Part shown: positions 23,777-31,998 of the stretch, in pieces
How the letters are laid out: the number at the start of each line of letters is the position of its first letter
Position numbering within the stretch: position 1 is the first letter of the stretch
Assembly: GCA_964035015.1 (NCBI GenBank)
Contig: OZ035997.1
Span: forward strand, 29,546,567 to 29,610,566
Direction: 5' to 3'
DNA: 64,000 bases
Origin: Corallium rubrum
Lineage: Eukaryota > Cnidaria > Anthozoa > Scleralcyonacea > Coralliidae
Program-made: the position numbers and the translations under genes
The notes under the pieces: model-generated
The model's database searches: none
Told to the model about the DNA's origin: nothing
What the model saw: the letters and a program-made list of their open reading frames with translations, nothing else

Positions 23777-24469
23777 TGTCAAAGGGAGACGTCTTGAAAG
23801 GCACGAAAAACCGCACTGTGTCAATTCGTCTTCATTGTTAAAGTTATAATATCCACTAAGTGTCTCGCCATATATTCTCGAACCTTAAACTGAATAAAAA
23901 ACTACCATAGGAATAACGAACCCACATGTGCATGCAGTACAATAAATTTCAAATTCATAAATTTGACTAATTTGCCATAGCTGCATGCAATTATCAACGG
24001 AGGATCAGCATCTCATCTCAAACGAGAGCAAACAAAATGAATCGCAGTCTTGTGGTATATAAAATTTACTAATCCATGATAAAATTATTTTGTGAACTTT
24101 GTAACTATATAAAGTCAGTATAGTGCTTTGGCGATCTTATGTGAAATGGTCGTCTTATTGGCACTGTGCATGCACGTAGGACATTTAGTATATATCTGAT
24201 TTGAAACGATGTTGAGAAATAATTATTGTATTTATGCCAGAAAAAGAGCGAAATATTTTGCCTAAAAGTTGTGGTAACACTGCATTCGTGTTTCTTTCAT
24301 AAGGCAATATGAATTAGGTTTCCTAGTTGTCTTGAAAAGATCTGCATAAATTAGCTTTTAAAAGTTAACTGCGTCTTTGGAAAATCGGTGAGAAAGAAAA
24401 CGTTAGTAGCTTAATCCGCACAACCAGTAATTTTCCATCCAGGCCCGGAAGTGACGTCATGCTTTCATA

Positions 24470-24612
24470 CCGGAAGTGAGGTGTGCGCACAGGTGTGCGC
24501 ACAGGCTGACGTCACAGGGGTGTGCGCACAGGCTGACGTCACAGGGGTGTGCGCACATGATGTGACGTCTTAGGGGTGTGCGCACAAATAATGCTGACGT
24601 GATAAGAATTAT
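24470..24612. promoter_or_regulatory. subterminal TGTGCGCACA/TGACGTCA repeats, left TIR
   Basis: About five GTGTGCGCAC palindromes, spaced near 28 bp, with TGACGTCA or close variants between them. The right TIR (30538-30612) carries about three. Copy number differs between arms while the flanks match. Such clustered palindromes next to a terminus are candidate transposase or host-factor sites, and may also act as the promoter of the adjacent zinc-finger ORF. Confidence 0.6.
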
Positions 24613-24780
24613 GCGGTGTATATCATTAACGTATCGCGGGCTACTTTTCGACAGATATTTCGGAACGCACTCGGGTTTCCTTCGGTCATCGTCGTATTAT
24701 TTCAAGAGGGAAGATCGATAAATAAAAACAGTATTGGAACAGTTTGGCTTGCTTTTTTTTCCCTTTCTTTTTTAGTGAAT

Positions 24781-24924
24781 ATGAGGAAAAAGAAACGGTG
24801 CGACATTTGCGGAAAACATACATCGAATTATAAACGCCATAGACGAATACATACTGGGGAGACACCTTTTTCATGCAAAGAGTGCGGTAGAAGTTTTACA
24901 GAAAAGAGGCTCATTTGCTCATAA
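24781..24924 (+). CDS. short C2H2 zinc-finger ORF in left TIR (truncated by array)
   Basis: 47 residues from ATG. The first finger is [18 protein letters not shown] (C-x2-C-x9-H-x3-H, three residues shorter than usual in the loop). A TGE(T)PF linker follows, then the start of a second finger, [11 protein letters not shown], cut off where the TGAGCA array begins. A CCCTTTCTTTTTTAG tract lies 5 bases before the ATG and would be a good 3' splice site, so an upstream exon is possible. It is probably the remnant of a longer zinc-finger gene captured in the TIR. Nucleic-acid binding is expected from the family but unproven for so short a product. Confidence 0.55.
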
Positions 24925-24955
24925 CTGCTCATGAGCACTTGCTCAGTTGCTCATA

Positions 24956-28373: not shown

Positions 28374-29548
28374 TAGGGATGTGCCGGATACTGCTCTGCC
28401 GGATACCAGATGGTACCGGATAGTAGCCTACCGGATACCGGTCAGGGATTCAAAGAAACCGGATACCGGATAATAACCGGATACCGGATATTCATGGTGG
28501 AACTTAGACAATACTTTACTACTTTTTCCCAATTCCCATAAAATCTGAAAAACCATTTATTTGTAGTAGAAAATTAAAAAACATAATGTGTATAACAGTC
28601 TCTTTGATCTTTACCAAGGCTATATTTTATGATTAACTTTAAGTTGTGTAAGGTGTTCCAAGTGTCCACCAGTTAGTCTTGATCTGTTTGGAGTGTCAGT
28701 GAGACCAGCACTTGAAAACAGCCTCTCCGAATACACTGAGCCTGGTGGAACACTCAAGTATTTGGCAGCAATTTCAGCGAGCTTAGGCCATAACACTTTC
28801 TTAGTTTGCCAACATTGAAAGGGGTCAGAGCCATCTCTTCTCAATGGGATTACTTCTTCTGCACAGTACATATCCAAAGTAACCTCCATTGATCGAAGAC
28901 TACTGCCACTTTCGTTACTCTCAGTCTCATTACTCTTCCGCGCTTCGCCTAGCTCATTAGCATGTTTACTCCGTAAGTGGTTGTGTAATGGTGTGGATGA
29001 ACACAATTCAAGAGATACTCCTCGCTTTATGCGCTCTTTACATTTCGTACATATTGCATAGATCTTTTCAGAGGGGTCTTCATTGAAAAAATCCCATACA
29101 TGGCAAATCAAATTGTAATATATTTTATTATATTGGGCCAGGGGGGGGGGTGGATGCGCTAGAGGGTAATAATGAGGAATACGAAAACCGCTGAAAATTC
29201 AGAGTGAATTTTCAGCGGTTAAATTCTGTGTGTATATTTACCTCCTAGCAAGCCGTAATAGATTTCTGTCTGAAGTTTCGTAAGCGCCGCATACACGGCA
29301 GCAGTAACATCACGAAAACCTTTTATTTCCAGCAATTGTTTTTTACTGTGTTTTTTTCGTACTGTGTTTCACAATTTCTTATCGCACAAAAAAAGACAAG
29401 GGCAACGTGTTTTCGGGTTCATATTTATACTAGAAGTCTCGGCACTATCTGGTAAATATCTAGCATATTTTACCGGATACCGGATAGTGCCGGATGTTCG
29501 TATTTTACCGGATACCAGATACCGGTATCCGGATCCGGCACATCCCTA
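28374..29548 (-). mobile_element. hAT element, internally deleted, with exact 8-bp duplication
   Basis: Ends TAGGGATGTGCCGGAT at the left and ATCCGGCACATCCCTA at the right, flanked by ATGAGCAA on each side (28366-28373, 29549-29556). Removing the element and one duplicate restores a perfect 31-bp array unit. Subterminal regions are packed with CCGGATA motifs at both ends, as in many hAT elements. At 1175 bp it is far shorter than an autonomous hAT (usually over 2.5 kb). ATGAGCAA also recurs in the array, but the phase restoration is specific. Confidence 0.95.
28620..29111 (-). CDS. fused BED finger and hAT C-terminal domain (catalytic core deleted)
   Basis: 163-residue open frame. Residues 21-50 give a BED-type finger (C21-x2-C24, H45-x4-H50). 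Residues 107-158 are the hAT C-terminal dimerisation region: LWPKLAEIAAKYLSVPPGSV, then YSERLFSSAG, NRSRL. The RNase H-like catalytic domain that normally lies between is missing, yet the frame is maintained. The first codon is TTG, and the frame is open upstream, so the true start is unclear. A product would bind DNA and dimerise but could not cut; it might act as a repressor (inference). Confidence 0.75.
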   Translation of the reverse strand: MICHVWDFFNEDPSEKIYAICTKCKERIKRGVSLELCSSTPLHNHLRSKHANELGEARKSNETESNESGSSLRSMEVTLDMYCAEEVIPLRRDGSDPFQCWQTKKVLWPKLAEIAAKYLSVPPGSVYSERLFSSAGLTDTPNRSRLTGGHLEHLTQLKVNHKI

Positions 29549-30200
29549 ATGAGCAAGTGCTCAGAGCAGTTATGAGCAAATGAGCAAGTGCTCAGAGCAG
29601 TTATGAGCAAATGAGCAAGTGCTCAGAGCAGTTATGAGCAAATGAGCAAGTGCTCATGAGCAGTTATGAGCAAATGAGCAAGTGCTCAGAGCAGTTATGA
29701 GCAAATGAGCAAGTGCTCAGAGCAGTTATGAGCAAATGAGCAAGTGCTCAGAGCAGTTATGAGCAAATGAGCAAGTGCTCAGAGCAGTTATGAGCAAATG
29801 AGCAAGTGCCCAGAGCAGTTATGAGCAAATGAGCAAGTGCTCATGAGCAGTTATGAGCAAATGAGCAAGTGCTCAGAGCAGTTATGAGCAAATGAGCAAG
29901 TGCTCAGAGCAGTTATGAGCAAATGAGCAAGTGCTCAGAGCAGTTATGAGCAAATGAGCAAGTGCTCAGAGCAGTTATGAGCAAATGAGCAAGTGCTCAG
30001 AGCAGTTATGAAATAAAAATTTATCAAAATTGTATTGTGTCTTGTTTCATTTTTTAAGCAATAATAAATCCTTGAAGAAAAAAATGTACACCAGAATTAA
30101 GCCGTACCTTCTATCGGGCCATCGGGCCTCATCGGGCCAAAAAGTGCCATTTCGGGCCTTTCCGGGCCATATGAGCAACTGAGCAAGTGCTCATGAGCAG

Positions 30201-30344
30201 TTATGAGCAAATGAGCCTCTTTTCTGTAAAACTTCTACCGCACTCTTTGCATGAAAAAGGTCTCTCCCCAGTATGTATTCGTCTATGGCGTTTATAATTC
30301 GATGTATGTTTTCCGCAAATGTCGCACCGTTTCTTTTTCCTCAT
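30201..30344 (-). CDS. short C2H2 zinc-finger ORF in right TIR
   Basis: Mirror copy of 24781-24924, 47 residues with one visible change (TGERPF here, TGETPF there). Same intact first finger and truncated second finger. Upstream frame is open to 30548 but without recognisable content. Keeping both arm copies almost identical suggests recent inversion-duplication or gene conversion. Confidence 0.55.
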
Positions 30345-31998
30345 ATTCACTAAAAAAGAAAGGGGAAAAAAAGCAAGCCAAACTGTTCCAATACTGTTTT
30401 TATTTATCGATCTTCCCATCTTGAAATAATACGACGATGACCGAAGGAAACCCGAGTGCGTTCCGAAATATCTGTCGAAAAGTAGCCCGCGATACGTTAA
30501 TGATATACACCGCATAATTCTTATCACGTCAGCATTATTTGTGCGCACACCCCTAATAACGTCACATCATGTGCGCACACCCCTGTGACGTCAGCCTGTG
30601 CGCACACCTCACTTCCGGTATGAAAGCATGACGTCACTTCCGGGCCTGGATGGAAAATTACCCTGGTTGTGCGGATTAAGCTACTAACGTTTAATGCTTA
30701 AATATAAGGAACAACAAAAATTATAGAAAACAAAATAACACAGCAAATAATCAACGAAAATTCTTTGAAGCGTTTATCTGATCCACTAAGCGAAGGAGTT
30801 CAGGGGGGTCTACTGTATTCTTGGCAGAGCATTCTGGAAACATGCGAGAAGAGAATAAATTATCAATGAAAAATAAATTGACCAAATCCCGTCTAGCGTA
30901 TATCAATACAATACTCACAATGAAAGCATGCATTGACAGAGGGTCCCCATGAAGCGTGATTGGGTTATTTTACTTACTCGTGAAACGTGATCGATGATTT
31001 TTTTAATCCGTGATTCGTGATCGTAAGGTTTCAAATCTTTTATTTTACGTGCACGTGAAAGTAACTTTTGATTTAACCGTGACCCGTTAATGAAGGCTAG
31101 AATTAAGCGTGATTCGTGAATCGTCTGTTTTGCGTAAACAGTTTTTTAGGATTTATGGAATTTCTGTTGTTTGTCTTGTCTGTCTTCGAACAGTTGAACA
31201 CCGAAATACCATGTACTTGATGCAACGTGAAATTTAATGCACCAATTCCTGACGATTCACACAAATTAACACTGGACGATCTGCGATGAACTCTAAGTAA
31301 ACTGGAACGCAAACTCCATAAAACATGCCCGCCCTATGATTGGGTGAAGCCAAACTTCCGGCCGCTGGGGGTAGCTATTGTCCACAGAACGTATGAAGTG
31401 CTGAAAACTCGCTGCAAAAAACAACTAGAAAATTTACGAAGAAGCTAGTACGTATTGGGGTTATCGGCCTTGTACCTGAACTATTTCTACCCACAAAAAT
31501 GGATTGAATAACGAAATATCTCATATCTGCCGATTGCCGAACAAAAGCAAAATTCGAGTCTGAAACTCGTACAGAAAATGCAGGTTTTTCTTATTTTTCT
31601 TTCTTATCTCAAACATTTCAGGGTTGTCATGCCAAGAATTAGTAATAAGATTAAAGCTAAATTATAGCTTTAACTCAAGTTTCAGTTGTGAAAATGCTAA
31701 ATCTGACATTTTTCGATACGAAGAGTAACTCCGGAAGCTTCCAGGCGTGTGTGGTCTGGGGCAGAGGCAACTGGTAAAGTGCATTTTGTAGTTTTTTTCC
31801 TACTGAAAATGGATAGATTTAAAACACAACTGTTTTTATAAACAAACGCTTCATTTTAAACCTGGGATTCTTATGTATTTTCTTTATATTTGTCTAAACC
31901 ATTTCAACCATGGCAGTTTGGTTGCGTATTGTTGACTTTCACTTCAGAGTTTATATTTTTACTGTTTTCCTTGTTTTACTCGTCATGTCAGTATTCCA

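Follow-up and report, generated by a model that had tools for sequence, protein, structure and literature searches.

An apparently non-autonomous Polinton derivative of Corallium rubrum with palindromic copies and matched, copy-specific ends

The analysed window, a 64,000-nucleotide stretch of the Corallium rubrum genome (contig OZ035997.1, positions 29,546,567 to 29,610,566 of assembly GCA_964035015.1), carries at window positions 24405-30685 a mobile element of 6,281 bp with exact boundaries. It is flanked on the left (24399-24404) and on the right (30686-30691) by the target-site duplication AACGTT, which is present once at each of two empty sites. The first of these, copy C (57334-57413, the single AACGTT ending at 57373), had already been used in an initial annotation of this DNA as proof of the duplication; the second, copy A (12855-12934, the single AACGTT ending at 12894), adds to it, with right-flank homology of only ∼23 bases. 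Both ends of the element begin with AGTAG, and the 21-bp terminal tag AGTAGCTTAATCCGCACAACC on the left (24405-24425, plus strand) is identical to that on the right (30665-30685, minus strand). The terminal inverted repeats (TIRs) include a promoter-like block (24446-24590, plus strand) made of CGGAAGTGACGTCA and TGTGCGCACA repeats, which we take to be ETS/CRE-like. CGGAAGTGACGTCA, with at most one mismatch allowed, has 2 matches versus 0.04 expected by chance and TGTGCGCACA has 8 versus 0.04, all of them inside the two termini.

The two arms of the element match at 99.0% over the outer 1,038 bp and at 92% over the ∼2.9 kb of the inner part, so that its description as a near inverted dimer of 6.28 kb centred at ∼26744 holds. 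Three arrays of dyads with a 31-bp unit separate its modules, as had been noted: one of forward units on the left (25114-25552, plus strand), one of reverse units on the right (29548-30011, minus strand), and a central one without a single orientation (26591-27295), in which “reverse” units run up to 26726 and “forward” units start at 26754, placing the strand switch, and with it the palindrome centre, near 26750. As called by the repeat finder, the first base of the right array overlaps the end of a nested insertion (28374-29548, minus strand), which is 1,175 bp long, has an 8-bp duplication, ATGAGCAA, and encodes zf-BED and hAT-dimerisation domains. This hAT-like insertion is younger than the element, is not part of it, and lengthens its right arm; the initial palindrome description was right about the inverted arms and had left the insertion unseparated. 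Assignment of the element itself to the hAT superfamily was considered and rejected, as the 8-bp duplication and the hAT domains are confined to the nested insertion.

Two types of zinc-finger open reading frames (ORFs) are found in both arms, as initially described, with some qualifications. ORF 1 of the left arm (24781-24924, plus strand) encodes 47 aa matching zf-H2C2_2 (Pfam E value 4.6e-11) and then continues into the dyad array; in the right arm 43 aa are matched (30216-30344, minus strand; C1:29576782-29576910). ORF 2 is intact in the right arm (27476-28030, minus strand, 185 aa) and broken by a 2-base gap in the left arm (25849-26401, plus strand). Its single C2H2 finger, followed by what by eye is an acidic stretch, scores under the Pfam cut-offs. 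A structure model of ORF 2 built from the single sequence has a mean pLDDT (predicted local distance difference test) score of 54, comparison with solved structures gave no significant match (best E value 0.26), and neither PHROGs nor phage records contained a match. In IMG/VR, the ORF 2 search returned 11 pattern stretches and the search with a Polinton-type integrase from the same genome (see below) returned 10, none of them confirmed in either case; the terminal pattern of the element returned a single hit in each of 27 stretches, which were attributed to chance although no chance level was estimated.

The element is not unique to this locus, a possibility ruled out by a search of the 474-Mb genome in which its TIR produced at least 45 match rows. 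The 185-residue ORF 2 protein produced 150 scored rows, most of them without internal stops (the two window copies are counted, and a few copies are split over two rows). A first set of 41 loci comprised the window and 40 fetched loci. An end pair was found in 31 of the 41, with perfect 6-bp duplications in 29, five of six bases in L027, and none in L023, which was left out of the counts together with the 10 loci that had no end pair (L024, L031, L032, L039, L041-L044, L046, and L047). Where several candidate end pairs were available, the one with the fewest mismatches was used, which biases the result toward agreement; of the 16 loci that allowed just one pair, 15 had a perfect duplication and L027 again had five of six bases. 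The sequence of the duplication varies by site, with no fixed target seen. The 30 measured copies, fetched by their resemblance to the window TIR or ORF 1, range from 1.5 to 6 kb, and their dyad arrays vary in length. A later set of 21 elements (13 big and 8 small) was picked because both ends fitted the terminal pattern, several of the small ones having been chosen for a tag also present in a big element; all 8 small ones have perfect 6-bp duplications. Some fetched loci carry further genes. L036, L040, and L043 have an additional ORF of ∼230 aa on both sides, in the arms, which in L036 belongs to no Pfam family. L045, another inverted-repeat element, shares this kind of ends but has other genes and lacks a dyad array. 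L046 (C37:7111831-7121617, 9.8 kb, identical end-tags) has one 313-aa ORF in both arms (1651-2589, plus strand, and 6573-7511, minus strand), which on inspection by eye looks like the beginning of PolB, and a 733-aa ORF; neither matched a Pfam family.

The resemblance to Polinton/Maverick elements that had been recognized from the AG termini, long TIRs, and 6-bp duplications is borne out by longer relatives in the same genome. The L041 locus encodes an rve integrase (E value 7.7e-14) and a DNA_pol_B_2 polymerase (E value 2.8e-15) and has one AGTAG end, which shares the promoter-like block of the element. A genome search with the terminal pattern yielded 235 hits, compared to none for a control pattern read backwards. 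Among the big elements located by their paired ends, the ends of 13 (13 to 24 kb) were fetched. Perfect 6-bp duplications flank 12 of these 13 (C1:3.78 has five of six bases), and 12, all except C47, enclose a match to the L041 integrase, which is partial or split in C1:3.78, C1:47.79, C5:62k, and C1:57.7 and contains an internal stop in C1:76.68. PolB (DNA_pol_B_2) is enclosed in at least 3 of the 13 (C12:5.58, C18:1.03, and C1:87.80). The first 23 bases of the window element are identical to one end of the 23.6-kb, integrase-enclosing element C12:11416403-11440008 and differ by one base from its other end. Terminal identity with integrase-bearing elements extends up to 60 bases in L022 and 194 bases in C8:8.24. 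At least 23 terminal bases are shared with a big element by 9 of 38 small copies, a fraction biased by selection; among the 30 copies not chosen by tag, 5 (the window element, L017, L020, L022, and L029) do so. The big element C12:5585567-5600443 has TIRs of ∼147 bp that are 97% identical and, near its ends, a GRF zinc-finger ORF, a RING-like ORF, and an ATPase-like ORF, the last scoring under the Pfam cut-offs.

Judged by these shared sequences, the element is very probably a non-autonomous derivative of Polinton/Maverick elements. According to PMC8097293, vertebrate Mavericks have 6-bp duplications and the end motifs (AGT)2 or (AG)3, whose repeats are credited with a role in the jumping-back step of protein-primed replication. 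The element shares with Polintons the 6-bp duplications, the TIRs, the AG/AGT-type termini (AGTAG fits the vertebrate type), and a terminal tag identical to that of some big elements. It differs from them in having neither an integrase nor a polymerase gene, in the 1.5- to 6-kb size of the 30 measured copies, and in its mirror-image form, its dyad arrays, and two zinc-finger ORFs of its own. The genome also contains a second Polinton clade, represented by more than 90 of 136 integrase rows at 48 to 59% identity to the L041 integrase; many of these have open frames of ∼360 aa, which suggests recent spread. In L041, the region 8833-9688 (minus strand) looks by eye like the start of a Polinton PolB frame; next to it, an adjacent frame encodes an array of six C2H2 fingers.

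Palindromes that run nearly from end to end were found in 5 of the 30 copies (L020, L022, L034, L035, and the window element), located on three contigs, and in all five the centre lies in the dyad array. In L022, the palindrome covers all 4,978 bp at 99.7%, with 0 differences in 674 positions between the two ORF-2 regions. ORF 2 points inward in the window element and outward in the other four, and therefore at least two palindrome origins are required. For 187 bases of the array strand, the predicted fold beats those of 200 of 200 shuffles (z = -2.8). Elsewhere in the genome lies a convergent PolB pair, at C20, whose arms are 99.6% alike over 3.57 kb, compared to 96.5 to 96.8% likeness to three other copies. 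Kinship places it in the second Polinton clade, through L055, which is 13 kb away from an integrase of 57% identity. Three more convergent PolB pairs were seen among the matches listed, one arm of one pair (L053) having been read.

The termini of the copies are more variable than the DNA next to them, and this variation is matched between the two ends of the same copy. In the terminal 21 bp of 30 copies, there are 0.90 differences within a copy versus 5.14 between copies (0 of 5,000 permutations), whereas in subterminal positions 200-296 (97 bases, 28 copies) the respective values are 1.0% and 2.4%; between copies, the terminal 21 bp thus diverge by ∼25% and the subterminal DNA by ∼2%. In the 51 elements with both ends read, the tags are identical in 35, differ by one mismatch in 11, and by more in 5; for the 13 big elements, these numbers are 10, 2, and 1. 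The first 100 of the 235 pattern hits provided 37 adjacent end pairs, constrained by the search to carry the fixed pattern bases at both ends; 30 of them are identical, 5 have one difference, and 2 have four or five, while 10,000 shuffles of these pairs gave at most 8 identical ones. The variable tag positions among the listed pattern hits are 6, 10, 11, 13-15, 19, and 20. Tags differing at two or more positions between the ends were seen in L015, L025, L026, L040, and C5:62k; since all five retain perfect duplications, the mixing of ends probably preceded insertion. Short pieces of the terminus recombine or mutate fast between lineages, with the change reaching both ends.

A free linear form replicated from its ends would be the simplest common cause of the palindromes and of the matched tags. 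The element has retained what look like the cis-acting parts of a Polinton (the AGTAG terminus, the promoter-like TIR, and the 6-bp integration signature), and we infer that the integrase and the protein-primed polymerase would be supplied in trans by the same-ended autonomous Polintons of the genome. An extrachromosomal linear form would be copied from its ends, and a displaced strand could snap back, here inside the dyad arrays, and be copied into an inverted dimer. One terminus may be copied onto the other in a panhandle-type repair, giving both ends the same tag before the integrase inserts the product with a 6-bp duplication. A precedent is provided by adenovirus, whose linear genome with inverted terminal repeats is copied from protein-primed ends, whose two ends can repair each other through a panhandle, and which forms palindromic defective genomes; unlike adenovirus, the element is known here only as integrated copies, with no virion or linear form observed. 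For the replication mechanism itself (linear replication, end-to-end correction, and snap-back), we consider the chances to be about even. Taken as a whole, a non-autonomous Polinton derivative subject to linear replication, snap-back, and end copying before integration is probably the best explanation of the data.

The most serious alternative is that both the palindromes and the matching of the ends are produced once the element has inserted, through chromosomal recombination and gene conversion acting on long inverted repeats, an origin of the kind proposed for Galileo. The arms are indeed long and self-complementary and the arrays vary in length. In PMC3573991, exchange between inverted repeats is invoked for Galileo, a Galileo/Foldback element of the P superfamily in Drosophila, and expansion of inverted repeats is said to have been reported for Polintons as well; the same source describes long, internally repetitive TIRs, two-TIR copies, and chimeric copies, all of which recall the present element. 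Galileo, however, has 7-bp rather than 6-bp duplications and another transposase, and its unlike-ended chimeras have non-matching flanks, whereas the five unlike-ended elements found here have perfect duplications. In addition, the contrast between within-copy and between-copy likeness is far stronger for the tags (0.90 versus 5.14 differences in 21 bases) than in the subterminal DNA (1.0% versus 2.4%). An origin after insertion is accordingly rated as unlikely.

Still less likely, in our estimate, is that the tags simply mark old subfamilies, so that the likeness of the ends is inherited and involves neither exchange nor correction. Tags common to several copies and to big elements would be expected of subfamilies, but the interiors differ by only ∼1.5 to 2.4% while the tags differ by 25%. 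All four base combinations are found at 22 of 28 pairs of tag sites (repeated mutation could also produce this), and for 9 of 50 tags the next octamer varies, one tag having five versions of it; in two of the nine, the octamers are merely those of the two ends of one element, and in seven they belong to different elements. An unrelated superfamily of DNA transposons with an unseen transposase could be suspected, given that the element has no transposase and that long TIRs and a foldback form reportedly occur in several superfamilies, but the ends, duplication length, and promoter block shared with integrase-bearing elements bring this view close to refutation. Finally, some long-read libraries are known to yield artefactual palindromes, but chimeric reads are a barely credible source of a palindrome that ends exactly at the duplication between unmirrored flanks, carries the hAT insertion in one arm only, and has the same form in five copies on three contigs.

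Several observations weigh against the explanation by replication of a trans-mobilised Polinton derivative. No integrase was found in the element in the ORF list or with Pfam, and no ORF encodes a protein-primed PolB, which agrees with the initial statement that Polinton genes are not visible and is the reason why the element is read as non-autonomous; mobilisation in trans was not observed. For L041 and L031, loci that carry integrase or PolB, a single end was located. There is no clear sign of purifying selection on ORF 2, in which shared changes comprise 4 synonymous, 13 non-synonymous, and 1 stop, and private changes 33 synonymous, 61 non-synonymous, and 6 stop. The ORF-2 regions of the two arms differ by 1.6% in the window element and by 2.3% in L020, compared to a mean of 1.5% between different copies, and such divergence would also be expected if two different copies had been joined, or if the element were just old. 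The dyad array was not found in the fetched parts of the C20 PolB arms, and palindromes therefore do not require it. Differently tagged big elements have integrases that are 92 to 95% like that of L041 (87% for one C5:62k piece), so the tags do not track widely different integrases. This last point bears on a further, doubtful possibility, namely, that in the Polintons of this genome, autonomous and parasitic, the tag is a short combinatorial terminal identity copied to both ends before each integration, which would serve as a code for origin or end recognition, and that small palindromic parasites exchange one code for another so that different Polinton lineages copy them.

The initial interpretation of the element overall is thus partly supported. 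Its statement that no described family combines these features stands as far as palindromic copies and matched variable tags are concerned: neither palindromic Polintons nor such tags are mentioned in the accessible parts of the literature searched, which included PMC6431247 and covered neither most subscription journals nor Repbase. It does not extend to the class, as a Repbase-style name for a non-autonomous Polinton, Polinton-1N1_DR from zebrafish, appears in PMC9341505. The likeness of Polinton-1N1_DR to the element is one of name, not of compared structure; the phrase “non-autonomous Polinton” and the like were not found in the literature searched. PMC4642659 and PMC6431247 had little to add here. 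Two features look new, namely, recurrent palindromes of whole elements and a copy-specific tag matched at both ends, the latter also in elements of autonomous size.

Other repeats are present elsewhere in the window. The blocks 14655-16529 and 30704-32578, as well as 17147-19882 and 32892-35637, are duplicates that are 98.8 to 99.6% alike, and the element lies at the left edge of one large duplicated block. A 23- to 25-bp satellite of the TATTTTACTGTCTAACACCAGAC type occupies positions 21312-23776, 35421-36391, and 58868-59361, and a 46-bp satellite is found in opposite orientations at 44499-45388 and 46186-46992, ∼0.8 kb apart. Long ORFs at 40044-44248 are, by eye, a candidate Gypsy-type retrotransposon polyprotein, and an ORF at 52076-52534 is a candidate piggyBac transposase fragment.

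The prevailing view is that Polinton replication starts at protein-primed ends of a free linear DNA, and to our knowledge direct signs of this are scarce. Matched copy-specific termini, together with recurrent inverted dimers whose 6-bp duplications are intact, would preserve a genomic fossil of this linear stage that can be read in assemblies, and counts of concordant ends in other species would then offer a test of the replication model. The data also document a gene-carrying, apparently non-autonomous Polinton derivative at high copy number.

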